A DNA stretch of 64,000 nucleotides from Thysanoteuthis rhombus (taxonomy: Eukaryota; Mollusca; Cephalopoda; Oegopsida; Thysanoteuthidae). Location: contig OY735201.1 of NCBI GenBank assembly GCA_963457665.1, positions 29,891,841-29,955,840 of the forward strand, in the 5' to 3' direction. A program made the translations under genes and the position numbers. Within the stretch, counting starts at the first letter, position 1. Each line of letters starts with the position of its first letter. Of this stretch, positions 7,133 to 40,443 are shown piece by piece. The notes under the pieces were generated by a model that worked only from the letters and a program-made list of their open reading frames with translations, was not told the origin of the DNA and made no database searches.

Positions 7133-7222
7133 AGCTTTCGGTGAGATTCAAACTCACACCCCTGTTACTGAAGGGAAGCCAGGTTAATGCTCTGTTGCTC
7201 TTACCAACTGAGCTACGAAAGC
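7133..7222 (-). mobile_element. tRNA-derived SINE head
   Basis: Reverse complement starts GCTTTCGTAGCTCAGTTGG (box A) and ends GAGTTTGAATCTCACC (box B) plus CGAAAGC. The 7-base ends can pair, the D arm (GCTC/GAGC) and T arm (GTGAG/CTCAC) are intact, but the middle cannot form a normal anticodon arm. It is therefore a SINE head rather than a functional tRNA gene. Related heads occur at 10486 and 23628. Confidence 0.6.
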
Positions 7223-9179: not shown

Positions 9180-9875
9180 TGATGATTATGTATCTTCTGT
9201 CACCATTGGTCGATTTATTAGGTTGATGCTAAAATTCCCAGCATTTTCTATCAGAATCTCCAATCTATATGAGTTCATACCATCCGTATCCTTCTTGACC
9301 TCACAACCACTTCCCCATCAGTTGTGTACTTCATCATAAGAAAACATTCGAAGACTACAGAAAAAAGAAAGCTATTTTGTCTACGAGGCCCATTGAAAGA
9401 ACATCTTCGTTAAAGTTTTACACATTTTCATAAATGATTTATTAGGTTGATACAAAAGTTGTTTTTTTTTCAGAAACGTTCCATTTATATGAGTTCATAG
9501 CATTATTATTCAGTCATTGACCTTACAGAACGTTTCAGATAAATTGTGTACTCCTCGATAAAAGAACGATTCCGCATCCGATGCGATCAATGCTTTGAGA
9601 AATTTCTCGATATCTTAAAAGTGTTGGAACAACTGACGAGACAAAACGCTACCATTACGTTGTCAATAGAACCCATTTCCATCAGAAAATTCCTGAAGTA
9701 TTCATTTTCTTTTCTTTTTTTTCAAAACTGATAAGATACCGGAAAATCATATTGATTGAAAGCACATAAAATTCTTTTTCCCCATGAAAGTGTCAAGGTA
9801 AAGTAAACTGAATCTTGGCCGAAATTCTTTGCATTTCTTATAGTTCTGATGATTCCATCTTTCAAATAAACTCTC

Positions 9876-10670: not shown

Positions 10671-11008
10671 ATGAAGTTGGTCATCAGACTCTTGCCCAAA
10701 ATATTTGTCCTTCTGGCCTTAGGGTGGTATTTATTTTTCTTGTTTCACCAACAAACCCAAATGTACTTCAGCAGGGACATATGGCAAGGATGGAACAAAC
10801 GCCAAACTTCAGAAAAAACAGGGAATGATCTTATAGACAAGTATGGCGAGAACAACGACAAATTGGCTGGAGAGAATGGACGAGGAATTCTTCTGGTGGC
10901 AGAAGAGAAAGAAATCGGAGATGAAGCCCTAAAGACTTATCATATCAACACGAAAGTCAGTGATTTGGTTCCATTGAATAGAAAAGTACCAGACTCTAGG
11001 CCTCTGGC
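10671..11008 (+). CDS. GALNT (family): GALNT exon 1: membrane anchor and stem
   Basis: The ATG at 10671 gives MKLVIRLLPK followed by a hydrophobic anchor (IFVLLALGWYLFFLF), a typical type II signal anchor. The frame is open further upstream to about 10614 but has no other ATG, so 10671 is the best start unless an upstream coding exon exists. An acceptor-like TTGCTAATTAG ends at 10653, and another, TTTCGTTTGCAG, at about 10314. The stem is hydrophilic and ends VPDSRPLA. Donor GGC|GTAAGT leaves phase 2. Confidence 0.85.
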
Positions 11009-12839
11009 GTAAGTAAATATGTTTTTGCTTCATCTACGATCAAAACTTTGAAGCCTTATCAAATCAACACAAGAGTCAGTGATTTGGTACAATTGAACAG
11101 AAAGGTACCAGGCCCCAGCCTACCGTCGTAAGTAATTGAGTTTTTGCTCCAATTTCGTCTAAAAATGGAAGTTATTTGATTCAGGCGGAAGTTGTCGATG
11201 TAATATACTAATTATTTCAGAGCAGAAATTATTTTCGACTTACATATATGTATAAGTATAAAGTTGTATTTCTATGTACGCTATGTCATCTTATTAAATA
11301 AGAGCCAATGTGCCTTTTTTGCCCAATGGTTGGTTTCCATAATGCTAAAACAAACAGAGAAATCAGAGGCCTCTGTCTATGCGGTGGCATATGCTAAAGC
11401 ATGCAAATATGGATGTGTGTGTGTTTGTGTCTCGATTAATGCTACTGCTCCTGCTGATTTGTAGCAGACTGAAAACAAATTGAGGCATCTCTCATTTTTC
11501 ATGGATAAAACGAATTTTTTTCTCATACTAAGAAAGAAATTCAATCTGTTTTCTAATAATTTATAAACAATAATACCACGGCGAACGAAAAATATTTTTT
11601 GGTACTCACAGAGAATATCTGAGCAGATTGAGGCTTTTTTTATATTTTCGAAAAATAAATATCGAATCCGCTATAATTGACGCAACTGTCACCAAAAAAA
11701 TGGAGTCAAATTTTGTGATTTAAAATGTTTTCTGTATGTTTCACTGTATTTATCTATTTATTCGTACATTCGTAATTTGGGGATGGTGAAGTGTTCGTTT
11801 CAAACTAGTTTGAACAGTGCTCTGTAAGTGTAACCCAGACAAGACTATATGTTTATATGTTCGGTGGGTCAAAATTCCCCACCCTATTCAAAATTTGAAA
11901 TACTTTTTGATAAAATGGCATAAAATTTTCTCTCCAGATATATTTGTTTGGGACCTTGAAAATCCCTATGAACTATGCAAATGTGAGAATTAACATCCCA
12001 CAAATGCCTTTCATTTTCAGCTTCGCAAATTATTTTCACGTTGATCAGAAATTAACTATGCACCACTTTTGCCAGATTCGACCACTCTCAACTTTTTTTT
12101 CCTCTGGGGTTGTCTAGGAGAAATAGGGCATTCGGATCAGGAGCATTGCCAGCTGTCATTTCTTAAAAATGATTCGACACTGAAAAGCTGGAAATGGAAA
12201 GCAATTACGGAATGCTTGCTTTTTTCCAAAATTAGTTCAAACAAATTCCAAAGGTTCAAAAATTTCATTACGTTTTTATCGAAATGGTTATTCAAATTTT
12301 AAAATGGAGAGTGACTTTTGAGTCACCCTATGAAAACCTCAGGCAAAATGATATCGTTTTATTTTTTCAATTATTGATTTCTGTTCTCGTCTGATGATTT
12401 CTGTTTTTTGTCTAAATAAACAAAAGTCATTGGTCGTGACAGGGTCAATCGTTATGAAGCAGTAAGAGCGAAAGATGGAGCTTATTTGCAGTCCAGGTCG
12501 AACAACCTGTTACCCACTATTACATATATGCATATAAAATTTCAAAAAATCTATTGAAAAAGTTTTCTAATGCTTAGCTTTTTAAGCTGTGAAGCTTCCT
12601 AGACTATATATATGTATGTGTGTGTGTTCCATCGGAATAAAGCCATCTGGTGGATGAGGAATTTCTGTGAGGAATTTCTGAGTAAATAGATAATCGCTTA
12701 AATTCAGCCTTTCTGACTGTCCAGTTCCGTAGTCCAGAGGTAAGATATCGGCCTGATGTGAAGGTTTCAATTCGGCCTTGCGGTACTAGATGGGATAAAA
12801 ACACTGAAGAGATGTAATACATCGAAACAGCTGTCTGAC

Positions 12840-12885
<46 letters not shown>

Positions 12886-12965
12886 TGGTACCAGACAGTT
12901 CAAGTGATTTGACCCCGAAAAAAATGATTACCTTGACACCTTGTCTCGTTCACGGAATACCCTTG

Positions 12966-13003
<38 letters not shown>

Positions 13004-14035
13004 CATGAAGTCGGAGACTTTACGTCATGTGGCTCAACTAGCTGGGTCAGCCATGCTGCTGGGAAAGGGACGGCTAACACCCATAGTTAGCTCAGGTTTC
13101 GACCAGGAGAGAGAAACTCTTGTCAAACTTTCAACTTAAGGGTGTTGCTTTTTTCACCATCTTGGTTTGCATGCAAACCTTTTGGTTTGAAGTGTACATG
13201 TTCAACTTTACTCAGTACTCCATTGCAAAGAGCTTATGGCTTTTCAAGTACAGTACCAACCGATTTTGCTTCTTAAATAACCTGGAAAGCCGGATCTCTG
13301 TTCGTGGGTCCAGGTCATTATATACGAACATGTACTATCCCAAGTTAGGTTTTGTAAATACACATGGACAAGATTTGAAAATGCCAAAATTGGCTTTCTT
13401 TTGAAAATGTTAAGATTGACTTGATTTTTAATTGACCTTTATTTGTCATCAGAGATAACAATCGCTATCTTATGTTTATCAAGGAGTCAAGTTATTCTTG
13501 TGTACATATTTGAAGTTCGGAGGATGCAGCCGTCTTCTTCAGATTAGACAATGTCAAAATTGACCTGACACTGAAGTGACACTGAGAGGTAACCAGGAGT
13601 CATTGCCAACCTATCCAATGTTCAGCTTGGGATCTACATTCCCCTTGTCCACCAATTTGGAGCGCGTAGGATGTCTTCATTAGATTTGAAAACGCCAAAA
13701 TTGATCTTTTTAGAAAATGCCGAAAATGACCTAACCTAAAATTGACCTTTCGATGTCACCAGAGGTCAGCACCATCGATAATATTTTTAACTCGGGGCCA
13801 AGTTACCCTTGAACTTTAATTTACTGGTCGTAGGGTACAGACTTAGATTTGAAAAAGCAAAAATTGATCTGACCCCAAATTGTCATTTGAAGGTTACCAG
13901 GTGACATCGCCATTTATCTTCTGTTTTTCCAGGGATCAAGTTACTCTTATACACCAATTTCCAGCATTAGGAATCTATTAGATGAAAAGTTAGTTAGAAA
14001 CAATGAAACCTCGACTTTAAAGTATATTTTGTAGC

Positions 14036-14080
<45 letters not shown>

Positions 14081-14326
14081 TAGATGCGTGTGTTTATATC
14101 AATTCATACATATATACAATGAGTGCAAAAATTGTCCGATACATTTCGAAAAGATTATTCCAACACCTTCAAAACTGACTGAATTTGGACTAAATATTAA
14201 TTATTGTTCAATATCTTTTTTTTTTTTTTCGATTTTTTAATCTTTGGTCAACATTCAGTTAATTTTAAAGCTTTATGAGGTTGTTAAAATGATTTTTTCA
14301 AAATTCTTCGCATACTTTTGATACCT

Positions 14327-14381
<55 letters not shown>

Positions 14382-17300
14382 TGACTAGTGATCAAAATTT
14401 CGGTAAAGTATAAAACAACTCTTGTCTCCCAAATGTCTTACTCCCCAGATTTGGTCTCTTCCGACATTTTTTGATCCCGAAGCTGGAATCCACACTGAAA
14501 AAAAAATCGTCGATTGAAGAAAATGTATCATGAGACATGAATACTACCGCTTAAAATGATCCACTTGAAATGCCTTATTGGGATTGGGGAGAAGAGGGTT
14601 TTTTAGAGAGAGATATGTCTCATAAAGTTGTTGGTAAAGCAATACATGTGTATGTGTGTATGTGCGCATGCGTGACATGCCTAATCCTGTTGTCAGTCTG
14701 TCTTTATCCTCAATGTAGATGCCGTAATCAAATATTCGATGAGTCGGATCTCCCTACAGCAGCCGTGATCATTCCATTCCACAATGAGTGGCCGAGCATC
14801 TTACTCCGGACAATCTACAGCCTCATCAACCGCACCCCACGACGGTTGCTAAAGGAGATTATTTTGGTTGACGATGCCAGCACCCTGGGTAAGCAGTAGA
14901 TTCTCTCTTCTGTTCCTCTTCATCTCTCAAGCAGGATTGTTGTTACAAAACAGGAATTAGCTCAGTGTACATAACTAAACCCAAAGTCATGCCAGCTTCA
15001 CGCGTATCTGTTCATGAGAACGCATACATCAACCAACATCACATTATTAACCAAAATAAGTTAAATTATAATCATTATACAAGGGAGGTAAATGTGTAAT
15101 TTTCGATTTAGCATTATTCAAACTATTCTCCAAAATTTAATCAGTTCTTCCTTAGCCCATGGTCATATTTTCCACAAAATAGCATTGAAGTTCATTGAGT
15201 AATTTTGAACATATCGTACTGACAGAAAAGAAACATGAATGAACACATAAATATATTTGAAAAGAGGTGAAAAAAAAATTGAATTCACCAAAATATAGTC
15301 AATTCTTCCTTAGCACATGACTCGCTTTTCACCAAATTTCATTGAAATTAACTGATAACTTTTTTGCTGTCAGAGGTGAATAGCTCGTCAAACAAGAAAT
15401 CAATCAAGTGAAGTACGTGTTACGCTCAGTCTGATCCATCAAAATATTTTAAAAAATGATAACCTAATGAGAATTGACCTTATTTGCAATAACCTGTGAG
15501 ATAACCCAAGCGATCATAGCTTTACGGTAGGTGCCCAGTTGATCAAAAATAATGTCCTTTTCCGTAAGTTGGTGGTCTCTTGGGTGTTGACAATTGTTGA
15601 GAATATAGTAGATATCGCTCATCATGCAGTCATACACACGCCCACTTTCTGACCATGTCGTCGGAAGATTCATCCTTCTTTAGTGTAACCACCATTCCCC
15701 CATGGATCTCCTTGGATGATAAGCCCCTTGATACCGAGATAACGTATGACTGCACGATGAATGATATTGTCCATTTTCTCAACGATTGATGACTCCCAAG
15801 TTTCAGATTAACAAAAAACAAAAAAAATTCAATTTTTATGATTTTCTGTGGAATCATTTATAGAGTTGAGCTGTTGTGAATCATGTCCTTGCACTTTTGG
15901 CCAGGAACTTATCAGTCAGTTTTCGTATGGTTTTGATTTCTATTACAGAGTCATTGAAGGAAACTTTGGACAAATACATCGATACTCATTTTCCTCGAAA
16001 CCTGATCAAGATGGTTCGTTTGGATAAACGTTCTGGTTTGATCAATGCTCGCCTCAAGGGATTGGATCAGGTCTCAGCAGAAGTTGTGTGCATTTTTGAT
16101 AGTCACATGGAAGTCAATATGGACTGGTAAAGAAGACATTCTTTTTCTTTTGCTCTTTATCATTATTGGTAGTGTATATTTGTGACAGCAGAAGTTGTGT
16201 GCATTTTTGATAGTCACATGGAAGTCAATATGGACTGGTAAAGAAGACATTCTTTTTCTTTGGCTTTTTATCATTATTGGTTGTGTATATTTGTGACAGC
16301 AGAAGTTGTGTGCATTTTTGATAGTCACATGGAAGTCAATATTGACATTCTTTTTCTTTTGCTCTTTATAGTTATTGGTAGTGTATATTTGTGACAATCA
16401 CATGGGAGTCAATATTGATTGGTGAGGGAGATATTCTCTTCTTTTGCTCTCTATCGTCAGAGCTGGCTTTGTTCTCGGATTTTTGCTTTATCTTTATTTC
16501 ACGTTTACAAAAAATGACCAAAAGCGAAAATAGCGATCTAAGTTTTTTTTTCCACAGAAGACTGTTGTGAAGGCAGCTAGTGCCAACTCTCTCCCTTTTC
16601 CTACGCTCCAGTATCCTGTAACTCCCATCATGCCAACTTCCAACGACTCAGTTAAACATACCATCATTACAAATTTGTGGATCTGGGAATGATCAAACAT
16701 TTTTCCCATAAAATATATGGTAATCGCTCATTTGTTAGTGTTTCTCTGAATTTTTGAGATGAGGTATTATTATTATTTCTATTATTATTCGGACTATCCT
16801 CATCTTGGTTGTTTTTCATACAACGTTTCGGCTGTTGTACTCTACGGCCTTCATCAGGTATCATCTGGTAGGTGTGGGGAAGTAACGAACTGAACCCTTT
16901 ATTTAACCGACGGGGGTATATTGACCGCACTCCCCTCTTAGCATTCGTAGTATTATTATTGTCTCACACTGGGACTGAACCTAGAACCATTGGATTACTT
17001 GCAGTAATTCTGTCTGATTCTGTAACCACTACGCTATGTGTCCATGTTTGTTTACGCCATTTTAGTTTACAATATTTATATTTAGGATTGCTCTGATTCT
17101 GAATATCAGTGAAAACATGTAGACCTTTGTTTGTCAGTACTTGTAAATACATGAGCTGACACTTAAAACTGTAAGTGATGTTCTTTGTATTGATATATAC
17201 GAAATACCCTGTCGTTTGATTCGTAAACTGCAAAAAGGGTTCTCGGATAACTTCCCCCGTGGATTATTGCCACCGAATAATTACCCCTTGACAATGGCAC

Positions 17301-20182
17301 AGCAACTATGAAGCCAAAGTTAAATCAAATGTAAAAGATTACAATGCAAATGGCCACAAAAGTGAATTATCAGGAAACAATTGTCAAGAATCAATTATCG
17401 GCGGGGGGCAGTTATCCAGGGAGGAAGGTGTCGTAATACCCTGCCAAAAGTGCCTTCTTGAACTGCAACGTATTCTAAATTGTGTTTTATTTTTTTCCAG
17501 GCTGCAACCACTTCTAGTCGAAATTAAGAAAAACCGCATGACGGTGGCAATGTCTCAATTGGATTATATTCGTGCCGATACTTTATTGTATTACTTCGAC
17601 AGGGATTACAAACCCCGATATGGTTTTGATTGGAAACTTGTATTTTTTGAAAGTTACTTCCGAAATGACCAAATGGATGGCAGAGATCTCACAGGCGCTT
17701 TTCCGTAAGTGTATCTACTAGGTGTGTGTGCGTCCGTGCATGTGTTCGTATAGAGTCAATTGTGGTTGAAGTCAAGCTCATTCATCTCATAGGAAATGTA
17801 AAAGTAAATTAAACTAAATTACCAATAGATACAAGAAGTCTATTGTCTATTCTATTGTAGCCATACACTTTACCTAATATTCTCGACTGGGGGTATGCCA
17901 AAGGCCACTGGGCAGGACAAACGGGTACGCCGGAAGAAAAAGTTTGAGAACCCTAAAAATATAAGAATAGGCTTCTGTGGCCTCCAGGTTGGGAACAGTC
18001 CCGAAAATCTCCCAGTATATATCTGACAGAAAGCTGTTATTTTAGATGGGCGGAAAGAAAATAAAGTTTAGATGGGCGGAAAGAAAATAAAAGATATATT
18101 TTCAAACGAATTGATTTTGATAACTTTTTGAAAAATTCTATTGAGTTAGAAAATGTTGGCTTTTATCAGCTATTGGCTGAATAATTTCAGGGTTGTTTTT
18201 TTTGCGGGGGGGTCCAGGAAAATTTTGTTTTTGTAAATTTTGAACATTTAGCTTTTAATCGACGTGAATGGATTGGTCTCTAAGCTTGTTAACCAGTAAA
18301 TGCAAAATATACAGTATTTTGTATTTCATTACATACAAGCAATAAAAAAAAAACATATACATTCTACACACACACATCCACACACATCCACACAGAATCA
18401 TGCTACCTACCCAGATATCCACATACAAAAATGCTGCTCAATGTTTTCGATATTTCATAAGTACAACACAATTGCAAAATTACTTGAATACCGCCTTTTT
18501 TATGGCAATGATAAAATGTAATAAATGAGAATCTATGGTTTAACCTTATCATTAATTTTGACTAGCTTTTCCCCTTCATCCTTACTTTCAGTTGCTTTTT
18601 ATCACAACTTTGAATCAGACCGTAATCCTACGGCAACAATTTAACAGCGGAATCGGAAAAAAAAATCAATCCAACGATGAGAATCGAAATCGAGTTAGGC
18701 TTAAGGTGTAAAATAATCTTCCGTTCAACTATAAAGTCCCGTTGGCTGAATGGTTAAAAATGATCAGGCGTATAATGGACCAACTCTGGTTTGCTCTTTA
18801 TTTCCCGATTGCCCTGTATTTTTTCCCTCTGTCTAAGAATTTCGGAGAGATATACGTATGGAAAGGTGGATTGAACATAGACCCACACATAAAGCCATCT
18901 GACATTCAGTACATACATATATATTCTGTCGATGTTTTGCAAGTTTTGTAAACGTACTCAACATATTCTGGTGGGATTTAGTTATCTTAGAAATATAATA
19001 CACAATCATAAGACAAATCATCTCGACCGTACACAAGACTAAACTGACGACTTGCTACGACGATTTATCTCGTCTGGGACGTTGGATTCGTTACTTGCGA
19101 ATACGAATTATCTCGTTCGTTGCTCTGAACTGACGACCTCCCTAAGACGTGTTATCTCGTACAAAGTAACTTGCAGGTTAATGGCATATTATGCTATGCA
19201 GTCTCAACGACAATTGCTAGTGTTTGGCATCCAATGGGGATCGAACCCGCTACTGTAATGATAGTGTATGAACAAAGCCCTTTAACCACTGCTCGATGAT
19301 AACATGATTTGAATGCGTAGTGAGCATCTCACCTGTTAGCACTAAAGTGATTATTTTAGCGTAGTACAGCACAAGGCAATAAGTGTGGGGCATCAGTTAG
19401 AATTATCTCACTGCAGTATTGATAGCTGAGAAGCTATTGCACCCCAGGGTTGGGGTGAATTGCCCCAGCAAAAGATGCAACAGAGTTTGCTGCTCGAGAA
19501 TCGGGCTACACAATCACAGCTAAGCAGGTGACCTATATTAGCACAGTTGTCATCACTGTTATTTCTCAAAGTAATTCGCTAGTGAGCCGAATTCGATTTT
19601 CACGAGGTACCTCACTTAAATGGCCTTGTGCTATACCTTTCGTCTGGTTTCTTCTCAGCAGTTTCATTTTTCAGATTACGAAAGTGATTCGTTGAAATAA
19701 GTAAAAGAAAAATAACATCCAATTTATAATCAAATTTTACGACTACATCTTACCTACATCTTATTTTTTAGTTGTTTTTTATCGCAAAAAATCAAGATGA
19801 AGTTTAAAAGTGACCATAAAGAAATTACGTAATATAGTAATATGTTTCAACAAACAAAAAATGAATTTAAAGAATTTGCCTCTTCGTTTTAACATTTTGG
19901 GACTTCCTGCACTGCCTTAGAGGTGTGGTAATGGTAGGAGCTGGATTTGCAGTGAATACTGAATATTTCAAAGAGATTGGTACTTATGACACAGGAATGA
20001 AGATCTGGGGTGGAGAAAATCTTGAACTGTCATGGCGGGTAAGCAAATTTTCTGCTCACTTTTTTTTTTTTAATTCTCCATCAAGCCGAAAAATTTTCAA
20101 GTATTTTCAGCAAAATAAAAAGTGTGAATCTAATTTTTCCATTCAAAGAGTTTTGAGGGAAAGTTGTTTTTTTTAATTTTGC

Positions 20183-20254
<72 letters not shown>

Positions 20255-23200
20255 CTCTCTCTCTAACATATATACTTTCTGCAATTTTGGGACTGTTGCA
20301 AGTGTGCAAATGATTATTGGCACTACCTTCGCTATCATAATTTTCGTTCTATCAGTATTAGTAACAGCAATATCATTGTCAAATCCCTACTATTGAATTT
20401 TGACTTTATTTTTGTATCTAACAACAATTATGGATGACAATGACCCGACCAAAAACCAGTGAAGCCCTACAGGAATAACGGGGACACAGTGACGTATGGA
20501 AAAACTGATGATGAATTCACCCCCACTTCTAAAGCCCAACTCAGATCTACTTGTGTTGCAGAAGGATAGGGACTATTAACATAGGGGTTTCAGTTAGACA
20601 CGCAGTTTTGGAATAATATTGTATAGAGTAATTAATTCTGTTTTCTTTACCTTTTAGATTTTGATAAAGCAAGGAAATTTGACCCTAAGGCAGCTAAGCT
20701 CGTCTTGATTTATTTTGCCTTAGATTTATTATGGCACAAAGAAATCGAGGGAAAATGAAGGGTGAGGTCTCGTAGCTCAGTCAGTAAAAGCAGCTATCAC
20801 AGATAATCTGTCTTCCCTGGGTCAAATAAAATATAGGATGAGATGAATACTAGTTTAATTAATTATAGTAATAATTTTCACACTTTTCTTCTAACGTCAA
20901 CATCACACTGTGATTCGCTCCGACGCGAAAAAACTTTTCTCCATCATTATTTCCGGGAGCAGATTCAGTAGTTTGAGCGGGGTAGGGTCCAAACAGAAAA
21001 TTATTTTTACAAATAAATTTGTGGAAAAGAAAAAGCATTTCAAACATCTAAAGCAAGAAAGTAATCTGCGATCCGGTATTTTTTTCACTTTCATTCAAGT
21101 CGTAAATTTTTAGCAGGCATTATTTCATTCACATTTCAGTTGTAACTTTTTAGCCGTGGCACGACTATTCATCTAACGACTTCAATAATCTGGATTGGTC
21201 AGTTTTTTCTGAAAAATATCAAGTTCTGCTGAATTTATGTCAGTGAACATCATTATAAACAATAAAATGAAATTTGTTTTGCTTGCAGGCGTCCATGCAT
21301 GCTGGTCAATTGGTCTACTCACTATCTTTGTATATCGCTCATATGGTGCGAGAACTTTCTTATCAGTTCTGTGTTCTGGGATGCTTCAAGTAGTTACTTT
21401 CTTCTTTCCGGATTTCTTCTCTGCATGCATTTGAGTCAACATCGCAATACTCATTATAAACAACAAAATGAAATCTTTTCCCATGGTTTTTGTCCGATAT
21501 GTGTCCACGTGTAATGGTCGGTTAATCCGCTCACTGTGCCCTCATATCGGTCATATGGTAGGGGAACAACCTTATCGATCCGTGTTCTGGGCTGCTTCAA
21601 GTAGTTACTTTTTCTCTTTTTAGATTTCCTCTTCTCATCCAAGTCAGTTGATTTCGTAGTACTTATTATAAATAACAAAATGAAATCTTTTCTTTTGCAG
21701 GTGACCACGTGTGGTGGTCAGTTAGTCCACTCACTGTCTTCCCGTATCGATCATATATACGGGAACAACCTTATCAATCTGTGTTCTAGGCTGCTTCAAG
21801 TAGTTACTTTTTCTCTTTTCAGATATCCTTTTCGCATTCATGTCAGACAACGTTGTGATTTTCATTATAAACAAAATGGGATTTCTTTTTGTCTCGCTTT
21901 TCCTTTCTTAGGTGTCCATGTGTGGTGGTCAGTTGGTCCACTCGTTGTGTTCCCATATTGGTCATATCGCTCGAGCACAGCCTTATCAATTCCCTGAAGG
22001 TAGGAAAGAGACGGAACTATTTAATTACAAACGCGCTATTGATGTGTGGCTGGGACCCTACAAAAAATATGTCTACAATGCTCATCCAGCTTTGAAGGTT
22101 AGTGTGCTGCGATTAGTAGTAAGACATTATTTATTCTTACTTTCTAATTTACTAAGTAATATTCTCACAGACTTTGTGAGATTGTCACCAGCGAACAAAA
22201 ATTCATTCAAATAATATATGAAGTAAGGGCCGTATCTGTCACGCTTATACTATTGCTAACAGCCATCACCCCAACACCCTCCTATTGAAGCTAAAAGAGT
22301 TATATGTACTCACTCGTGTCTGTCGGTACGCTTATCTATTTTTCCACACAACAACTCCCAAAGCTCTCGATGTATTTCAATGTTACTTTCCAGAATGCTA
22401 GGCCTTGGGGTAGGAAAGAATTGGTAAAATTTGGGGGCGGATCCAATATTTTTTCTACTGAGATATATTTTTTTCTATTTCTTCTTTTTTTTTTTTTCAT
22501 GCATTATGTATTCAGTTATGTCTGTCCATACAACATCCCAAAAGTTGTAAATTAATTTCTTCGTGTGAAATATTGATTGAATTTTGGTTTGGATCCGGAA
22601 ATATATTTCGATTGGGAGATTTATTTTATATTGAGAAAGTAGTCCAACAATAGAAAAAAAAAGTCGAAACTTACAGTTACCTCTCCTACACCGTAGCTAT
22701 ATATGAACCGTTTTTCATTCAGATTATTTTTTTTATTTAGTATATGGCGTTGGCGTTGGCGTTGGCGTTGGTGCGTGCTTTATAGTTTATTTTATCATCC
22801 CAACAGGAGGATTTTTCTTTTAAAACTTTTTTGTCGCAGATTTTCCGAATATTATCCCTACCACTGTTAACAAACTTGTATTATATTTATTAAACCTATC
22901 AACCATGGAGTGGTGAAAATGAGAGGGTATGAAAAGGTACAGTGTAAATAGGCACACGACCCGGAGGGGCAACGACCCACCCCCCGCAAAATTTGAGCAA
23001 ACAAGTGCATGGCACACCTTGAAGCCTTATTGCGTAGGCTGGAGGGATAGCCAAGCCATTAATTATTCACAACCAGTGATGGGAAACGGTTTGAGGAGAT
23101 AGGTACACGGTAATACAAGGTGTTGGTGACTAGGCATACACTAACATCTCCATTGGTAGACACTGAACTTACAAAAAGATCTGTAATTGAGAAGTAGGTG

Positions 23201-26200
23201 TACGCTGTACCTAAACTCCCATTTCCACAACCATATTCCAGTTGTAGAGTCTCTATGAAATACTCCGAAATCATATTGTGAATAAACATTTTTTTGGCAT
23301 TTGCTTATCTTTTCTTTTTAAATTTTTGAGATATTTTCTCATTATTTTCCAAACCATCATAATCATACTCGCAACCCTTATTTGGGTCACGACCATAGTT
23401 TTGAGAACCACCGGTTCAACTACTCGAAGTTTCCTGTTCGTCTCAAACGATAAATTTTAACAAAGCTTTGTCAGATACGGGATTTGCATTTTTATTACTT
23501 GGTAGTTTAATTAAATATGTTGACTAGTTTTACTTTTATCTTAATTTTAGTTGCATTTTTATACAACTTTCAATTCGGGAAACTGTTTATATGACAACGA
23601 ATAACAGCGCGCTCGGATGTTAAGAATAAGCTTTCGGTGAGAATCGAACTCTCACCTTCATTGACAGAGGTAGTCTAGTTTACGCCTTACTGCTTTAACC
23701 ACGAATATTTCATCGATTCACGCTTTTAGACTTAGTTTGATTTTTAGTAGTTATGTTATTCAGTATTATACGGTTTTTAAGACGGTTGGTAGAATTATGT
23801 ATCAAGTATTATTCCATACAATTTGTTCTAATTTGTTTCAGGATATCAACGTCGGCGATCTGACTGATCGACTGGAACTCAAGAAACGACTCAAATGCAA
23901 ATCTTTTGATTGGTATCTGGACAGCATTTGGCCGGAATTATTCCGCTTTGAACACAATGTCAGAACAAGTGGACAGGTAAATGCATGCCTATATACTTAC
24001 CGGTTGAGGATTGTGATTGCATACACCAGAGATGGACAAACTTGTCCATTGTGAGAGGCACAAACGATAAACTTCAGATATTTGAGAACTGCAAGAAATA
24101 AACAAAATTTACACACACCTTTTTATTGTTACATACACAATTTGTTGCCCAAATTTTGAATAAATACTAGAATAAGCCCGTAAAAAAACGGCGGTGTTAT
24201 TTGCGAATGGATTAGTAGTATCGAGACGAAATCCGATGTAGTAAATAATTTAAATGTATTAATTGTAATGTACTAAATGTAACTTATATGACAGTCTCAC
24301 CTTTTTGTATAGGACATGAATTATTGATTTGAACGGTAATGTATGGAAAATAACAATTGATGTCATTAGGAATGAAAATAAATCTTAACAACAAGTTAAA
24401 ATGTTAGAAGTATAACTTAATTCATTAGGAAAAGTTTTAAAATAGTTATTATATTGGCAGTACCTCCCCCCCCCCATATCCAGGCAACGTTGAGTATTAT
24501 TGTTGATTAAAAATAAAATAAAAGGTTTATGAAAGTATCAGACCATCCGTTGCTATGACAATAAAGGGTATTACAAGCCACAGAGACGTCAGGTTTTTTT
24601 TTTAAACTAATGAATTTTTAAAAAATGATCATTTGTCTGTCTATTTTGGAGGTAACTAAAGAAATAAGGGACGAATACCTTTCTAACCTATATTCCTGAT
24701 TCTCGTTATCGATCATCTGAGACGCTACACCATCTGCCATTAATATTTAAGAAGTTTCTATAAACAACTGATATTTTTCAGCTCAAAATTAAAATTAATT
24801 TTGACGAAGGAAGACTGTTCCCAACTCTAAGTGTAAGCAATTTCTTTCCTCGTCTTCAAGGAGTCAAAATTTTGTGAAACTTTTCCCCCTTAAAAGAGTC
24901 AAAAGTGAACGGGGACTTCAAACCCCGATAAAGGGTCAAAAGTGAATGGGAGGCCTTTCCCCGACTTTAAGGTATCGAGAGGTTAGAGAAACTTTTCTCT
25001 TCCTCTAAGGAGTCTTTCACCTTTAATGTATCGATAGAAAAGGAAGTTTTTTTTTTCTCAATAAGGGGTCAACAGTGAAGTTCTTTTTTAACTCCTAAAA
25101 AATACCCGGTGATGACTGGCACAATCTGTATGTACAAATTTTATGGGTTTTAGCGAGGGAGTTGTATTTAAAATGTAACTTTAATACTGAAGTTGAACCT
25201 TACTTTCTGTCTAATATATATATATGCTTATTTTTATGCAATTGTTTATGGGGTCTAAAGTGAAGGCCTCCACTTCAAAGGGCAAAAGAGGGGGACATTT
25301 TTTTCCTTCTGGAAAGGTTCAGAAGTGAACAAGAACCTCCTTGTTAAGGGGTTAAAAGTGATGGGAAACTTTTCCTCCTCCAAGGGGCGTAAAGTGAAGG
25401 GAAAATATTTCCTCTATTTAAGGGTCCGTAACAATAGGAGACCTCCCTTAAGCTGTAAAAAGTGAATGAGACTTCTTCCTGTCTTTTAAATGATACTTCA
25501 CCTACTGCATTTCTGCTGAATTTTTCAGTAACATTCCCCACTAAATGATCACAGCCTGACTAATGACGAGAGAGGTAATTCATTCATTGATCACCACTTT
25601 CTAAAAATTTAATCGATCACCCCCAACACGACATGCTACCAAAATACATTTCACCGGATGATTTCTATTGAGTGAATAACAAGAACTGTTTTCTTTCTAT
25701 TTCTTTCAGTTAGTAAATGTGGAAAAGAATGTTTGCTTGGATAACAACAATCATTTATTTCCTTTTCCTGTCAAATTATTTGCTCGGCCTTGTAATAAAA
25801 TCTACGCTGAACAGGTGAGAACTTTTCTTATGATTCAATTTAAACCAATAAGTAATGTCCGATAACAGATAGTTTTAATTGCCAGATTGACTAGAGCCTA
25901 TGGGACCACGAAACTAGTGTTAATGTCCACCTGACTACAATTGTCAGTCGGTGTAAATCAAACCGGTATAAAAACAGAACTATAACTTAAAGAAATGGGA
26001 AATGAAAGCTAAGCCCCAGTGATATGAGAGAGAGAAAAAAAATGATTTCTGGATATATAGTGATCAGCTAAGGTGATTCGAAACGAGACTTTTTATATGC
26101 AATGTTTATTTATACATGAAAAAAATAATTTAGATCTCCCATTCTTCATTCTACACGGACATAGATCAAAGGGACATAAATCATACAGGAAACCCGAGTT

Positions 26201-28682
26201 ACCTCCCTTGCATGACAGATTTTTATGCTTTGTATCTGCTGGCAATGGAGCAGTGAGTTTATTAGTTATTGTTTCGCATCTTCTCAGTAGAAGACATCAA
26301 CTTTTGATTTAGATCTCTACACTAGACGGAGTGTGGAGATCTAAATCAAAGTTTTGTCTATCATTTGTATTTCAATTAAAGTGTTTTGCTTGGTGGGATT
26401 GTGTTGGCGAGGTTCATTTTTTTCCTATCAATGTTACGATTGCAGCTGACATATATTATCAGCAGTTGGAAAATTTTAGACACTGCCTCGAAGGAGAAGA
26501 GACCCAGTTTGATCAATCGTGTGGTGCCTCATTATGATAAAAATGTACGTTCCCTTACAGTTCACATCTGAAAAGATTGAAGACCTTGACTGGGAAGAGA
26601 ATCAACATCCTCTCAATCCTCCAAGTCATGCTCTATCTGATTATCAATTTTATTCTTTTGATTTTGGTGATTTTCATTTTTGTGTGATTTGTCAATGAAC
26701 AGGGAAACTACGGGAAGGTTCACAAGATGTCCCAACCTCTACCCGCAAGGTATGGATCAACCTGAACTTCATGAGTTGGCGCTGAACCATATATAGAGCC
26801 ATATTGATTGACTAGTTCTTAAAACACATGGACCGACTGAAACTAATCTCTCAACATTATTTTCAACCAATCGAAAGAAAAATTGATATCAAGAAGTTTG
26901 TAAGGCGTTGGAAAGGGGTTATTGAAAATGATGAAACCCGTGGTCATGAATAAATTCTACTTAAACATCCAGACATCGTTGGATAATCTGATAGGTTAAT
27001 AAGCCTGGCTACTTCAGGGTCAAACTCCACTCCAACATATTCCAGCTGATTACTGCAGACAACTGTTTCGTTGCATTACAACTCTTCAGTGTAGTAATAG
27101 ACTATACAATGTCCCTTCCAGTACCGCTGGGTAGGATCGAAACGCTCACTTCAGACCCAAAGGCAGATGCTCTACCCTTGCCCTACGCGGAAGTTGACGG
27201 TCAGTAGGACCGAGTTCAGCGATATATCTATTTATGCATTATTCCCCATCTGCTAGATTGCTCCATCCCACAATTGGAAGAGCATTGCATAGCAGCTTAT
27301 AGTTGACGAGTGTCCTATTTACATGAATATATCTATTTATTAGAATGAAGACAGCCCGTACATATCTGTATGATACATTTTTGTTAATCTCTGAGACTTG
27401 TCAATTGAGGTTAGTCACTAAAACAGCCTCCTGGTAATCGGTTTGTCTTTAGTTCAAATTACAGTAGGGTGGGTCTAGATTCCCCATCCCTAATTTTGCT
27501 ACAGTTGTTCTTGTTACGGTAGAAAAATAAAGCCAACTCAAATTTCAACAATAATACGGCTTGAACGTCTATGATTGGTCTTTGTGTTTCACCTTTCACT
27601 TTCAACTGACTATTTCGTGACGTGTGACCGACTTAACCGTTTTAATTCTCTCTTTACAAATCATTATTTCGCTTAGATTTGTTTAATTTTTACCGTTATG
27701 CATGTGACAGATATATGCTCTTGAATGTAGTTGAAATTAACTTTTTCACCTATTTCACTGTTCGTAATCCTGTAGTTTTTATAAAACGGCTAAAACTTTT
27801 GAGAATTGTGCAGAAATTTTAGTAGTCAACTCATAGCCAGTGAACATTCAGAGGATTCAAAGAATGTATTCGCTAATTAAATCTATTTTATTGAGTTTTC
27901 CTGCACAAAACTCAATATTAAATGCCTTCAATTTCTTCTTCTTTTTTTTAAGGGATTTTCTTTAACGAATGACTACAAAATTCGCACATCCTTGAACTGT
28001 GTTGGGTTGGAATGTAAAGAGAATAACTGTCATCCAGTTTTGATGGACTGCTGGTACCCATATATAGAACGATGGGATCAAACAAGGGTACGTTTCTGCG
28101 AGATCTTTACTTAGTTTTTCTTATTAGCTAGCTAGCGATCCAAGTCTGTTCATATCTCTCCATCTATCTAACAATCTATCCATTAGGTATGGATAGTGAG
28201 ACGCAATTTTCTCAGGAAAAACGACACGTAGCAAATCATTAAAATCTGGCAAAAATCAGCATATTATTCTATTTCAATAAAAGTTTCAGTACTTATTTAA
28301 TAAGGATTTGAAAAAAAAACATTTTCCATTCCAATTTTGGAAAAGAAGGATTTTTTCCACATGATTCCTAAACTACCTTTTGATAATTTGATGATATGTT
28401 TTCTCTTCTTTATTGATTTTAGCACAACCAACAGATGAATCACTCGGGATTTTAATGTTTTAACATTAAAGATTTAACATTTTAGAAAAGGCACTCCGGC
28501 CGGCTCAAATTGGGAGTTTTTCTTTGGGAACCAAAAAAACATTTCCTTCCTTCAAATGTTTTAGTTTCATTTGAGCAGAAATAATTCAGGCTTTTGACTT
28601 TTGACTTGCGAAAAAAAACTTTTTTTTAATCAATATACTTTTTGATTTTTTATCATTTTTATCAATTATTCAGATTAAGCCA

Positions 28683-30590: not shown

Positions 30591-30663
<73 letters not shown>

Positions 30664-30669
30664 TGATGA

Positions 30670-30703
<34 letters not shown>

Positions 30704-30708
30704 GGTGG

Positions 30709-30739
<31 letters not shown>

Positions 30740-30813
30740 GATGAAGATGATGATGATGATGGTGGTGGTGGTGGTGATGATGATGATGGTGGTGGTGGTG
30801 GTGGTGGTGGTGA

Positions 30814-30847
<34 letters not shown>

Positions 30848-31191
30848 GGTGATGATGATGATGATGATGATGATAGCGGAGTCATAGATAGTCTTTAGAT
30901 ATGTTATATGGAATAGGCTTTGGAGTAAAAATCTAAGAAAAACGAAAATACTTCTGATAAATTCGATAAAATATTGAGTTAGTATTGAGTTAGTTTAAAT
31001 GAAAAAGAAATACAGAAATATTTGTAATTATAATTGAACTTTCTTTTTCTGTCAACAAGGATGGACTTCTTCAGGCGAAGGGAAAAAATCTATGTCTGGA
31101 TATTGATCAGAATAATGATGTCTTTGGTTCTCCTTGCAACGCATCAAAAGCCTCACAGAAATGGATCACCGTTCCTATCGAAATCAACTAA
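10671..31191 (+). CDS. GALNT (family): Polypeptide N-acetylgalactosaminyltransferase, ten exons
   Basis: Transfers GalNAc from UDP-GalNAc to Ser/Thr, the first step of mucin-type O-glycosylation in the Golgi. Coding exons: 10671-11008, 14719-14888, 15949-16126, 17501-17704, 19921-20038, 21912-22097, 23842-23976, 25710-25814, 27953-28087, 31060-31191. Every intron is GT..AG and phases agree, giving 566 residues, a normal family length. Order: short cytosolic tail, membrane anchor (about 8-26), stem (about 27-105), GT-A domain with FHNE (133-136), VDDAS (163-167), Mn-binding DSH (220-222), EIGTYDTGMKIWGGEN (315-330) and SHIGH (350-354), then a ricin-type lectin domain (about 437-566) with CLD at 452-454 and 535-537 and a final QKW. 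The middle lectin repeat lacks CLD. Catalytic residues look intact. I cannot assign it to a specific GALNT orthologue. Confidence 0.95.
11046..11135 (+). pseudogene. Extra copy of the GALNT exon 1 3' edge with donor site
   Basis: About 110 bases downstream of the exon 1 donor, a diverged copy of the last ~80 exon bases and of the donor reappears. The block AGTCAGTGATTTGGT is identical in both, and GTAAGTAA follows at 11128. It encodes an open peptide (INTRVSDLVQLNRKVPG) matching INTKVSDLVPLNRKVPD of exon 1. The copy donor is also phase 2, so it could join exon 2 in frame, but no convincing acceptor precedes it. Likely a non-functional exon-edge duplicate; alternative exon use cannot be excluded. 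Confidence 0.85.
11136..12715 (+). other. GALNT intron 1, first part: no gene seen
   Basis: AT-rich intronic sequence. A block at about 11860-11890 (GGTGGGTCAAAATTCCCCACCC) resembles one near 27470 (GGGTGGGTCTAGATTCCCC), hinting at a dispersed repeat. No coding signal. Confidence 0.4.
12722..12792 (+). mobile_element. tRNA-derived SINE head in intron 1
   Basis: Box A-like CGTAGTCCAGAGGTAAGAT and box B-like AAGGTTTCAATTCGGCC at tRNA-like spacing. No full cloverleaf. It is followed by two TA microsatellites (about 12843-12883 and 12968-13001) that may be the repeat's tail region. Confidence 0.4.
12843..13001. repeat. Two TA microsatellites with short spacer
   Basis: Pure AT/TA tracts of about 41 and 34 bases, separated by about 85 bases of unique sequence. 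Confidence 0.9.
13371..13985 (+). repeat. Tandem array of about 150-170 base units in intron 1
   Basis: Four diverged units start near 13371, 13538, 13682 and 13851. Each contains AGATTTGAAAATGCC-like, AAAATTGATCTGACC-like, GGTCACCAGAGGTCA-like and CAAGTTACTCTTGTACACC-like blocks. A partial degenerate unit may precede them. Non-coding satellite-like repeat. Confidence 0.75.
14036..14380. repeat. TA/GA and TA microsatellites in intron 1
   Basis: A compound (TA)n(GA)n tract at about 14036-14080 and a pure TA tract of about 50 bases at 14330-14380. Confidence 0.9.
14719..14888 (+). CDS. GALNT (family): GALNT exon 2: start of the GT-A domain
   Basis: Acceptor CAATGTAG|ATGCC. The split codon gives Ala, then CRNQIFDESDLPTAAVIIPF, the HNEW segment, LLRTIYSLINRTP and EIILVDDAS. 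These match the conserved UDP-sugar binding start of GALNTs. Donor CTGG|GTAAGC leaves phase 1. The cysteine at residue 114 is the conserved one just before this segment. Confidence 0.95.
14889..15948 (+). other. GALNT intron 2
   Basis: Intronic. Contains a mariner-like relic (separate entry) at 15470-15790. The rest is AT-rich and unremarkable apart from two similar phrases about Ala/Thr-poor AT words near 15120 and 15290 (TCAATTCTTCCTTAGC-like), suggesting a diverged duplication. Confidence 0.5.
15470..15790 (-). pseudogene. Mariner-like transposase, N-terminal HTH relic
   Basis: Minus-strand translation gives VEKMDNIIHRAVIRYLGIKG, then in another frame SSKEIHGGMVVTLKKDES and MVRKW, then HPRDHQLTEKDI. 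This parallels mariner/SETMAR N-termini (RAVIKY..KG..AKEIH.DM...L....S...V.KWV, later DRRLT...IA). The linker region is largely lost and frames change, so it is inactive. A second relic covering the C-terminal half lies at 26380-26955 in intron 8 in the opposite orientation. Confidence 0.6.
15949..16126 (+). CDS. GALNT (family): GALNT exon 3: carries the DSH metal-binding motif
   Basis: Acceptor TATTACAG|AGTC completes a Glu codon, followed by SLKETLDKYIDTHFP, the LIKMVRLDKRSGLINARLKG segment and VCIFDSHMEVNMDW. DSH (220-222) is the Mn2+/UDP-binding motif of the family. Donor GACTG|GTAAAG, phase 2; the Trp is completed by exon 4. The last 52 bases are repeated downstream in an array. Confidence 0.95.
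16075..16460 (+). repeat. Array of 111-base units duplicating the GALNT exon 3 3' edge
   Basis: Unit 1 (16075-16185) is the real exon end, its donor and the first ~59 intron bases. Unit 2 (16186-16296) differs from it at only a few positions and keeps GACTGGTAAAG. Unit 3 (from 16297) lost the donor segment in a small deletion. Unit 4 (from about 16395) is more diverged but has GATTGGTGAG. The period of 111 is divisible by three, which produces a 107-codon antisense open frame. In-register splicing into the extra copies would hit stops, so they are probably not coding. Confidence 0.95.
16955..17040 (-). mobile_element. tRNA-derived SINE head in intron 3
   Basis: Reverse complement has CATAGCGTAGTGGTTACAG (box A-like) and GTTCTAGGTTCAGTCCCAG (box B-like). 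The sequence to its left (about 16745-16955), including ATAATAATA repeats, probably belongs to the same element. Confidence 0.55.
17245..17417. mobile_element. MITE-like element, about 173 bases, with inverted ends
   Basis: Left end GGATAACTTCCCCC and right end GGGGGCAGTTATCC are imperfect inverted complements, with similarity continuing about 25 bases inward (GGATTATTG versus CAATTATCG). The interior is AT-rich and non-coding. No convincing target-site duplication was seen. Likely a non-autonomous DNA transposon of unknown superfamily. Confidence 0.65.
17501..17704 (+). CDS. GALNT (family): GALNT exon 4
   Basis: Strong acceptor TTTTTTTCCAG|GCTGC. Encodes LQPLLVEIKKNRMTVAMSQL, then DYIRADTLLYY and YGFDWKLVF, matching the WLEPLL...V.P.ID.I....F..W.L.F segment of the family. 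The loop after FDWKLVF (FESYFRNDQMDGRDLTGAFP) is divergent. Donor TTTTCC|GTAAGT, phase 2. Confidence 0.95.
17705..19920 (+). other. GALNT intron 4: SINE-rich
   Basis: Holds a 25-base direct duplication (AGATGGGCGGAAAGAAAATA twice, about 18042-18091), a SINE-like body at about 18540-18770 that shares blocks with 23515-23705, and a tRNA-like SINE head on the minus strand at about 19205-19300 (reverse complement GAGCAGTGGTTAAAGGGC and GCGGGTTCGATCCCC). No coding signal. Confidence 0.55.
19205..19300 (-). mobile_element. tRNA-derived SINE head in intron 4
   Basis: Clear box A (GAGCAGTGGTTAAAGGGC) and near-perfect box B (GGGTTCGATCCCC) on the minus strand, but no paired acceptor stem or anticodon arm. 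The flank at about 19040-19200 has repeated TTATCTCGT words and probably belongs to it. Confidence 0.6.
19921..20038 (+). CDS. GALNT (family): GALNT exon 5: WGGEN signature
   Basis: Acceptor CTGCCTTAG|AGGTG. Encodes GVVMVGAGFAVNTEYF, KEIGTYDTGMKIWGGEN and LELSWR, the Gal/GalNAc-transferase signature that is the best single identifier of the family. Donor CGG|GTAAGC, phase 0. Confidence 0.97.
20185..20264. repeat. TC microsatellite in intron 5
   Basis: About 80 bases of CT repeat with three interruptions, shortly downstream of the exon 5 donor. Confidence 0.95.
20768..20832 (+). mobile_element. tRNA-like sequence in intron 5
   Basis: TCTCGTAGCTCAGTCAG resembles box A, and CCCTGGGTCAAATAAA is a decayed box B. 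No acceptor stem. Treated as a decayed SINE head, not a tRNA gene. Confidence 0.4.
21245..21911 (+). repeat. Three extra upstream copies of the GALNT exon 6 start
   Basis: Four homologous blocks begin at 21289, 21501, 21701 and 21912, the last being the real exon 6. Each consists of ATTATAAACAA-type intron, TGAAATCTTTT, a pyrimidine tract, then a version of GTGTCCATGTGTGGTGGTCA. Copies 1 and 3 retain acceptor AGs (TTGCTTGCAG and TTTTGCAG); copy 2 lost it. Downstream of about 70 exon-like bases the extra copies run into a shared CTGTGTTCTGGGCTGCTTCA block absent from the real exon. Translations (VTTCGGQLVHSLSSRIDH in copy 3; VSTCNGRLIRSLCPHIGH in copy 2) resemble VSMCGGQLVHSLCSHIGH. Confidence 0.95.
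21912..22097 (+). CDS. GALNT (family): GALNT exon 6: third metal-ligand region
   Basis: Acceptor TTTCTTAG|GTGTCC. Encodes VSMCGGQLVHSLCSHIGHIA, then PYQFPEG and AIDVWLGPYKKYVY. The C.GG.L....CSH.GH segment contains the His (354) that aligns with the third Mn ligand of GALNTs. Donor TTGAAG|GTTAGT, phase 0. Confidence 0.96.
22300..22640 (+). repeat. Second locus of the 'ATCTCC...AAAGTTC' repeat, in intron 6
   Basis: Two units near 22345 and 22530 share CTCCCAAAGCTCTCGATG and the CAACATCCCAAAAGTTG block with the 1230-1860 array. A (GGCGTT)n hexamer run follows at about 22746-22772. Confidence 0.6.
23515..23705 (-). mobile_element. tRNA-derived SINE in intron 6
   Basis: Reverse complement begins ATTCGTGGTTAAAGCAGTAA (box A-like) and contains GAGAGTTCGATTCTCACC then GAAAGC (box B and stem), as at 7133. 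The body (TAGTTGC.TTTTTAT.CAACTTT...) is shared with 18540-18770. Confidence 0.6.
23842..23976 (+). CDS. GALNT (family): GALNT exon 7: end of the catalytic domain
   Basis: Acceptor TTGTTTCAG|GATATC. Encodes DINVGDLTDRLELKKRLKCK and SFDWYLDSIWPEL, matching the family's D.GD.S.R..LR..L.CK.F.WYL..I.PE block. Donor GGACAG|GTAAAT, phase 0. Confidence 0.96.
24840..25520 (+). repeat. Degenerate short tandem array (about 45-60 base units) in intron 7
   Basis: Roughly a dozen irregular units built on AAGGGGTCAAAAGTGAA, then GGGGAACTTTTCCTCC-like words. Examples near 24895, 24945, 25060, 25250, 25325 and 25385. Unit length varies. No coding potential. Confidence 0.7.
25535..25700 (+). repeat. Partial copy of the 8465-type dispersed repeat
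   Basis: Shares GTAATTCATTCATTGATCA, CGATCACCCCCAACA-like and TTTCTATTGAGTGAATAAC with the 8465 copy in order. It ends within about 10 bases of the exon 8 acceptor, so its right end may supply part of the polypyrimidine tract. Confidence 0.6.
25710..25814 (+). CDS. GALNT (family): GALNT exon 8: first lectin repeat
   Basis: Acceptor ATTTCTTTCAG|TTAGTA. Encodes VEKNVCLDNNNHLFPF and FARPCNKIYAEQ, the alpha ricin-like repeat with the CLD motif that binds GalNAc in some family members. Donor GAACAG|GTGAGA, phase 0. Confidence 0.95.
26292..26359. repeat. Inverted repeat (hairpin) in intron 8
   Basis: Arms of about 30 bases, GATTTAGATCTCTACACT and AGTGTGGAGATCTAAATC, with outer AGACATCAAC/GTTTTGTCT pairing and a 6-base loop. 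It sits immediately 5' of the mariner-like relic and could be a foldback junction of two inverted fragments. Confidence 0.75.
26380..26955 (+). pseudogene. Mariner-like transposase, DDE-half relic
   Basis: Plus-strand blocks in order: WWDCVGEVHFFPIN, TIAADIYYQQLENFR, EKRPSLINR, then EKIEDLDWEENQHPL-P-PSHALSDYQFYSF, and RRWKGVIENDE near the end. These match WWD..G.IHFELL...TI.ADLYC.QL, KRP.L.NR, KLEELGWEVLPHPPYSPDLAPSDYHLF and the terminal RW..VI...G of mariner-type proteins. Frames differ and the SPDL motif is altered, so it is inactive. Confidence 0.8.
27117..27186 (-). mobile_element. tRNA-derived SINE head in intron 8
   Basis: Reverse complement has GTAGGGCAAGGGTAGAGCAT (box A) and GCGTTTCGATCCTACCC (box B). 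The sequence to about 27330 may be the SINE body. Confidence 0.5.
27953..28087 (+). CDS. GALNT (family): GALNT exon 9: second lectin repeat
   Basis: Acceptor CTTTTTTTTAAG|GGATTT. Encodes GFSLTNDYKIRTSLNCVGLE and VLMDCWYPYIERWDQTR. NDYKIRT aligns with the family's T..KEIRT segment. The usual CLD of the beta repeat is replaced by NCVGLE, so this repeat probably does not bind sugar. Donor ACAAGG|GTACGT, phase 0. Confidence 0.93.
29935..30290 (-). repeat. Reverse copy of the 8465-type dispersed repeat
   Basis: Contains the reverse complements of the family blocks in reverse order: AACAGGTCTGCTTAGTCACT, GGTGATCAATTAAAACATTG, then CTTCTAGCTCCATTGGTACG and CCAGCTGGACCGACTAAAA. Nearly full length. 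Confidence 0.65.
30592..30875. repeat. Compound AAT/GAT/GGT trinucleotide repeat
   Basis: About 69 bases of (AAT)n pass directly into (GAT)n interspersed with blocks of (GGT)n, about 280 bases in total. The triplet periodicity creates long open frames on both strands (Ile/Met/Val and Ser/Pro runs), which are artefacts. Confidence 0.97.
31060..31191 (+). CDS. GALNT (family): GALNT exon 10: last lectin repeat and stop
   Basis: Acceptor GTCAACAAG|GATGG. Encodes DGLLQAKGKNLCLDIDQ, SPCNASKASQKW and ITVPIEIN, then TAA at 31189-31191. CLD and QKW are the classic gamma ricin-repeat motifs, so this is the expected C-terminus. The acceptor lacks a long pyrimidine run directly before the AG, but TTTCTTTTTCTGTC lies just upstream. 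Confidence 0.93.
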   Translation, partial: DGLLQAKGKNLCLDIDQNNDVFGSPCNASKASQKWITVPIEIN

Positions 31192-40371: not shown

Positions 40372-40443
40372 TCCCAAGTGGTCTAGTGGTTAGGATTCCG
40401 CGCTCTCACCGCGGCGGCCGGGGTTCGATTCCCCGCTTGGGAA
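40372..40443 (+). tRNA. trnE-CUC: tRNA-Glu, anticodon CTC
   Basis: 72 bases with a complete cloverleaf. Acceptor stem TCCCAAG/CTTGGGA pairs perfectly, D arm GTCTAGTGGTTAGGAT is the eukaryotic tRNA-Glu form, anticodon stem CCGCG/CGCGG encloses loop CTCTCAC (anticodon CTC at 40405-40407), and the T loop is GTTCGATTC. Discriminator A at 40443. A TTTTTT Pol III terminator follows within 10 bases. No intron, and no CCA encoded, as expected for a nuclear gene. Confidence 0.96.

Follow-up and report, generated by a model that had tools for sequence, protein, structure and literature searches.

A 64 000-nucleotide stretch of the genome of the cephalopod Thysanoteuthis rhombus (assembly GCA_963457665.1, contig OY735201.1; G000:C4:29891841-29955840), which is the whole stretch of DNA that was analysed and is referred to here as the window, contains a gene of the polypeptide GalNAc-transferase (GALNT) type, gene A, in which three splice sites are each spanned by a tandem array. 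Gene A occupies positions 10671-31191 of the plus strand and consists of ten exons with consensus splice sites, which join into an uninterrupted frame of 566 amino acids. A GALNT-type glycosyltransferase was recognized by a GT2-type catalytic domain together with likeness to solved GALNTs, and gene A displays both: exons 2 and 3 match Pfam Glycos_transf_2 (E values of 2.5e-8 and 1.7e-7, respectively) and exon 6 matches the solved GALNT2 (phmmer, E value 1.7e-9). Exon 5 gives a weak match to Pfam Glyco_transf_7C, and the last exon taken alone matches Ricin_B_lectin with an E value of 2e-4 and 21.9 bits, the Pfam cut-off being 29. Exon 3 contains the tripeptide DSH, which we take to be the DxH motif.

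A paralogue, gene B, lies head to head with gene A upstream of the window, on the minus strand at approximately C4:29843065-29867720, and is known from ten exon matches, which correspond to the same ten exons as in gene A. The identity between the two genes is uneven over 10671-28087, amounting to 92-99% in exons 2-6 and 68-79% in exons 7-9, with a diverged N-terminal part of exon 1, which suggests either gene conversion or uneven constraint between these head-to-head paralogues. The genome in which further copies were sought comprises 2.73 Gb.

The three arrays of gene A span the donor of exon 1, the donor of exon 3 and the acceptor of exon 6 (Table 1). TRF and self-alignment locate them where the initial annotation had placed them, and the span that it assigned to the pattern, 10671..22097, covers exons 1-6 exactly, from first base to last. 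In the TRF list for the window, periods above 36 bp occur only at 10932-11148 (period 119, 1.8 copies, 81% matches) and at 16075-16346 (period 111, 2.5 copies, 97% matches); the exon 6 array is absent from this list and was found by self-alignment (E value 8e-81, spacing 212, 74.6%). The exon 1 unit of 119 bp takes in 77 nt from the end of exon 1 and the adjoining 42 nt of intron 1, and its copies are 80% alike over 101 columns, or 74% alike with wider bounds. The exon 3 unit of 111 bp extends 52 nt into the exon and 59 nt into the intron; copies A1-A3 are 91.5-94.3% mutually alike, A3 has a 13-nt deletion that covers the donor and an older partial copy, A4, lies next to it. At exon 6, three copies (c1-c3) precede the real exon at spacings of 212, 200 and 211, each comprising approximately the first 80 nt of the exon and the preceding intron tail; the likeness among these spare copies is 70-78%, and their identity with real exon 6 is 65-73%. 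The unit lengths proposed initially for exons 1 and 3 (about 120 and 111 bases) therefore stand, that for exon 6 ('about 205') giving way to these three unequal spacings, and the levels of similarity bear out the proposal that the arrays differ in age. The accompanying statement that the other junctions are free of arrays also holds, since with the same self-alignment settings no straddling pair was found within 430 bp on either side of the remaining seven exons of gene A. Local repeats also occur off the junctions, for instance as a degenerate tandem repeat at 13371-13960 in intron 1 (spacing 311, 67%), away from any exon, and as two looser pairs (9212-9572 and 15125-15362). The arrays at the splice sites surpass the other closely spaced duplications of the window in strength but are not alone.

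Table 1. Exons of gene A and copies of the three junction-spanning arrays (window positions).
Feature	Position	Strand	Remarks
Exon 1	10671..11008	+	Start codon, hydrophobic N-terminal stretch; donor at 11009; spliced frame
Exon 1 array, copy 1	10932..11050	+	Gene-model donor; TRF, self-alignment; B homologue 88-91% identical
Exon 1 array, copy 2	11051..11151	+	Decayed, intronic; GTAAGT at 11128; donor 7.7 versus 10.1 in copy 1
Exon 2	14719..14888	+	Array-free; spliced frame; Pfam Glycos_transf_2
Exon 3	15949..16126	+	Contains DSH; donor at 16127; Pfam Glycos_transf_2
Exon 3 array, A1	16075..16185	+	Gene-model donor; TRF
Exon 3 array, A2	16186..16296	+	92.4% identical to A1 (119 aligned columns); identical donor letters
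Exon 3 array, A3	16297..16393	+	Lacks 13 nt including donor; alignment
Exon 3 array, A4 (older, partial)	16378..16455	+	Overlaps A3 owing to fuzzy alignment ends
Exon 4	17501..17704	+	Array-free; spliced frame
Exon 5	19921..20038	+	Array-free; weak Pfam Glyco_transf_7C
Exon 6 array, c1	21289..21500	+	Exon-6-like start and intron tail; upstream AG present, weak (3.7 bits)
Exon 6 array, c2	21501..21700	+	Upstream acceptor AG lost
Exon 6 array, c3	21701..21911	+	Upstream acceptor strong (14.5 bits versus 16.5 in real exon 6)
Exon 6 (real)	21912..22097	+	First ~80 nt form the exon-like part of the array unit
Exon 7	23842..23976	+	Array-free; spliced frame
Exon 8	25710..25814	+	Array-free; spliced frame
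Exon 9	27953..28087	+	Array-free; spliced frame
Exon 10	31060..31191	+	End of C-terminal lectin-like region and stop; array-free; weak Pfam Ricin_B_lectin

In a DNA search of the genome, in which very common words were skipped and only the best candidates were scored, the exon 1 unit matched only in genes A and B, and the exon 6 unit matched A, B and a single 65-bp place on C37. In this search a dispersed repeat or transposon finds no support as the source of the arrays, the units matching only A and B apart from this one 65-bp match. In tandem exon duplication, as in mutually exclusive exons, an exon sequence is repeated in tandem within the gene. The units of gene A differ from such exons in holding one exon edge only, and not whole exons with both sites; they end within exon sequence, they contain no whole exon with acceptor and donor, and this candidate was rejected. 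The best acceptor-like scores before exon 1 copy 2, A2 and A3 are 2.5, 1.9 and 5.1, respectively, the real acceptors of gene A scoring 8.1-17.0.

Comparison with gene B provides a relative chronology. Exon 3 of gene B carries its own, older array (spacing 86), the copies of which, B1-B3, are 69-76% alike, and the exon 3 arrays of the two genes share a breakpoint. Since A3-A4 aligns over the first copy junction of gene B (blastn, 16293-16433, 76.6%, E value 2.5e-26), A4 and B2 are probably one ancestral copy, and the exon 3 array is probably older than the split between A and B; A1-A3 are a later round in gene A, with a unit different from the older one. A counterpart in gene A of the third exon 3 copy of gene B was not found (321 of 500 shuffles were as good). 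Copy numbers also differ at the other two junctions, with four copies in A and one detected in B at exon 6, and two in A and one full copy in B at exon 1. Ahead of exon 6, the intron of gene B includes a sequence homologous to the intron tail; a search there for an exon-like second copy in decayed form found none (175, 180 and 436 of 500 shuffles were as good). For exon 1, a second copy in decayed form is no more than weakly suggested in B (16 and 21 of 500 shuffles were as good); because the intron sequence of B nearly matches the start of the unit at this place, the trace could also be the pre-duplication state. The point at which intron 1 of gene A resumes relative to gene B gave no alignment (score 67; best of 60 shuffles 89).

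The first-copy donors of exons 1 and 3 and the last-copy acceptor of exon 6 keep the frame of gene A. Reading through the donor of either exon 1 or exon 3 leads immediately to an in-frame TAA, and splicing to the acceptor before c3 would lengthen the transcript by 211 nt, which is not divisible by 3. Splice sites were scored with weight matrices derived from splice sites of A and B, 18 donors and 18 acceptors; these are also the sites scored, and one B acceptor among them is apparently out of register by about one base. The spare donor of exon 1 scores 7.7 and the real one 10.1, and both A2 and the real exon 3 donor score 6.7; the best donor scores in plain 111-nt intron tiles reach 5.7, 6.9 and 10.2 at the top sampled quantiles. 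Spare sites have been lost by deletion of the donor in A3, by mutation of the donor GT in B2 and by loss of the AG in c2. Over the first 39 nt, the mismatches to exon 6 at codon positions 1, 2 and 3 number 3/4/3 in c1, 3/4/3 in c2 and 2/2/2 in c3, an even spread, in small numbers, such as would be expected of neutral decay; coding use of the exon 6 copies finds no support, as there is no codon-position bias. Exon 1 copy 2 has 16 differences (3/5/8), which are too few for judgement. The spare sites are presumably seldom or never used.

The abundance of such arrays was assessed over 264 kb around the window with a strict tandem rule (spacing of at most 700, gap of at most 0.6 of the aligned length) that was set after the window pairs had been seen. 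It kept ten of 119 local pairs, forming nine arrays, two of which agree in spacing, length, identity and E-value and could represent a single dispersed element, and it excluded two non-junction pairs of the window, 9212-9572 (barely over the limit) and 15125-15362. Seven of the nine arrays fall inside genes A and B. When placement was restricted to these two genes, at least four of seven arrays at exon ends had a P of ~0.035, which is weak and post hoc; the exon ends considered numbered 40, all those of the two genes, and comprised the gene ends as well. In these 264 kb, TRF listed seven rows with a period of at least 40, three of them at exon ends. Straddling arrays are found at three of the ten exons of A and one of the ten of B, and among these four junction arrays that of B exon 3 is not independent of that of A exon 3.

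In other genes, no straddling pair was found at any of 65 sampled exons, comprising 25 matches to other GALNTs and 40 myosin-head loci. Fisher tests of 4/20 give 0.0025 against 0/64, 0.036 against 0/24 and 0.0099 against 0/40, with counts one exon smaller than the final totals (65 and 25). The myosin sample consists of 40 of the first 41 of 72 rows, the skipped row sitting in another fetched stretch (L053), and the other-GALNT sample of 25 exon matches at 24 loci, several GALNT hits lying outside it. Flanks of 430 bp were used for myosin and of about 290 to more than 600 bp for most GALNT matches, and exon ends in both samples are match ends, not annotation, four myosin loci having been inspected by eye. 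Local repeat pairs were present at six of the 24 GALNT loci and four of the 40 myosin loci, none over a match end; at L051, a 707-spaced pair flanks the exon and reaches the end of the stretch, and a duplication that includes the exon and runs on beyond that end is possible. One myosin locus, L087 (745-1059; C36:21916578-21917641), has an array spaced at 119 bp, with pairs at 119 and 230, in the sequence beyond the exon, some 60 nt from the donor; arrays near exons are therefore not rare. The initial annotation had raised the alternative that exon-edge arrays are equally common elsewhere; they are not frequent in these samples, although the excess within A and B is weak. The array signal is partly that of an array-rich gene pair and partly one of position, and the P values overstate the evidence because the case was chosen for its striking look.

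The observations are likely to be explained, and most economically so, by repeated local tandem duplication in an array-rich gene pair, tolerated since a single intact site is enough for splicing. On this view, several distinct duplications of about 85-210 bp would each have fallen over one splice junction, and with an exon edge and its adjoining intron duplicated, the outermost intact site would still be usable, preserving the exon and the frame. The extra copies would turn into intron and then decay, and the arrays could duplicate again: at exon 3 at least two rounds took place, the first of them probably before the A/B split and the more recent in A, based on another unit. Recurrence is supported because exon 3 has both a shared older array and a second round in A, and tolerance fits because the frame is intact, the exon 6 copies are free of codon-position bias and spare sites are kept only in some copies. 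The local mechanism put forward in the initial annotation is retained to this extent; no breakpoint singles out the slippage or microhomology that it named, and nothing indicates that splice sites themselves draw duplications. We infer that the rate of tandem duplication is raised in the A/B pair, as opposed to a chance cluster, and that the duplications themselves arose by ordinary slippage or unequal exchange; targeting of splice edges may also play a part.

Several points weigh against this explanation. Four of the nine strict arrays touch exon ends, for which random placement gives a P of ~0.0002 (200 000 trials), and gene A alone, with 3/10 against 0/64, yields a Fisher value of 0.0019, more than expected; this excess may leave room for an exon-edge-specific process. 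At 14.5 bits the acceptor before c3 is a strong one, the A2 donor equals the real exon 3 donor in score, and the spare donors and acceptor may be used in transcripts. In addition, the breakpoints prove no mutational route, slippage, unequal exchange and microhomology appearing indistinguishable from them.

The first of these points bears on a mutational hotspot, in which a process tied to transcribed exon edges, or to the locus, would recurrently duplicate the edge. The contrast between the straddled exons of A (3/10) and B (1/10) and the samples of other GALNT (0/25) and myosin (0/40) exons is in its favour, as are the two rounds of duplication at exon 3, but the in-gene excess of four of seven arrays reaches a P of only ~0.035, the arrays at exon 3 in the two genes do not count as independent and the case was picked as unusual. 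Moreover, a conserved exon copy presumably keeps old duplications recognizable for longer than intronic ones, which would favour old arrays at exon edges, although this leaves the young exon 3 array unexplained. On balance, such a hotspot is unlikely.

If the spare sites were functional, acting as alternative donors or acceptors that lead to unproductive transcripts and so tune expression, the strong c3 acceptor, the presence of spare donors, the in-frame TAA past the donors of exons 1 and 3 and the frame-breaking 211 nt added by c3 would all find a role. The losses in A3, B2 and c2 argue otherwise, as do donor scores (6.7 and 7.7) near the top of those of plain intron tiles, the absence of a complete second copy from both exon 1 and exon 6 of gene B and the lack of a codon-position signal in the exon 6 copies, and we regard a function of this kind as very unlikely.

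It is also conceivable that an array is the trace of the origin of its own intron. A documented route exists, as an intron of a potato RdRp gene is reported to have been gained via tandem duplication over an intron-exon boundary (PMC4974935), and the exon 6 unit resembles the potato case described there in joining the 3' side of an intron to the 5' side of the next exon. In that account, however, a cryptic donor made the new intron, whereas the copies of gene A are merely intronic in the inferred gene model. Two other GALNT genes of this genome, L028 and L043, read through the exon 3 position without an intron, which slightly raises the odds of intron gain and slightly lowers those of repeated tolerated duplication, but L044 is interrupted exactly there by an intron in the same phase, and introns of further GALNT genes coincide with the start of exon 2 (L032 and L040), the end of exon 5 (L035 and L042) and the start of exon 6 (L039, L041 and L046). 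Because these positions are shared, the introns at exons 1 and 6 look older than their arrays. Intron gain thus appears disfavoured at exons 1 and 6, gain and loss would look the same at exon 3, and overall this origin is highly improbable. That the young 111-bp array is an assembly artefact, as might be feared from the 91.5-94.3% likeness of A1-A3 and the failure of assemblers at repeats, is hardly credible given the private differences of each copy, the 13-nt deletion in A3 and the older array at the same site in gene B.

Elsewhere in the genome, two GALNT-like matches, C35:23552469-23553959 and C20:39171323-39172825 (both G000), cover 493 and 497 query residues in one stop-free frame each, are 35% and 33% identical to gene A, respectively, and are possibly retrocopies or intronless genes. 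Within intron 9 of gene A, a long TAA and then ATG/GTG trinucleotide tract with a 36-bp higher-order period occupies 30592-30874. The window also contains two Rfam tRNA matches, at 7133-7222 on the minus strand (45.3 bits) and at 40372-40443 on the plus strand (62.1 bits), which are either genes or SINE-derived, and an open frame of 208 amino acids at 47038-47664 on the minus strand, which resembles a multi-pass membrane protein and has no Pfam match; four larger open reading frames gave nothing in Pfam.

Tandem repeats at exon-intron boundaries have been reported to vary between recent human gene duplicates in segmental duplications (De Grassi & Ciccarelli, 2009; PMC2812944), and the arrays described here resemble them in spanning such boundaries and in differing in copy number between paralogues. 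The human cases, as presented in that work, involve minisatellite expansion, were checked in transcripts and sometimes gave rise to new introns, whereas gene A has few copies of 111-212 bp at three junctions of one gene and is known from DNA alone. Literature search listings returned no report of such arrays in the GALNT family, which is not proof of their absence. Each event is of a described kind, and the unusual feature is the involvement of three junctions in one gene.

For the A/B pair, a heritable, locus-specific tendency to duplicate exon edges, acting before the split and later in A, is unlikely; if true, one gene family would keep producing redundant splice sites, from which alternative splicing could arise. 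Were exon edges to show an excess throughout the genome, this would point to a mutational or selective process that is seldom considered; otherwise, gene A would represent a neat but ordinary cluster. A single gene with junction-spanning duplications of several ages and a paralogue as reference is of use in tracing the fate of duplicated splice sites, whether they are tolerated, decay or turn alternative.

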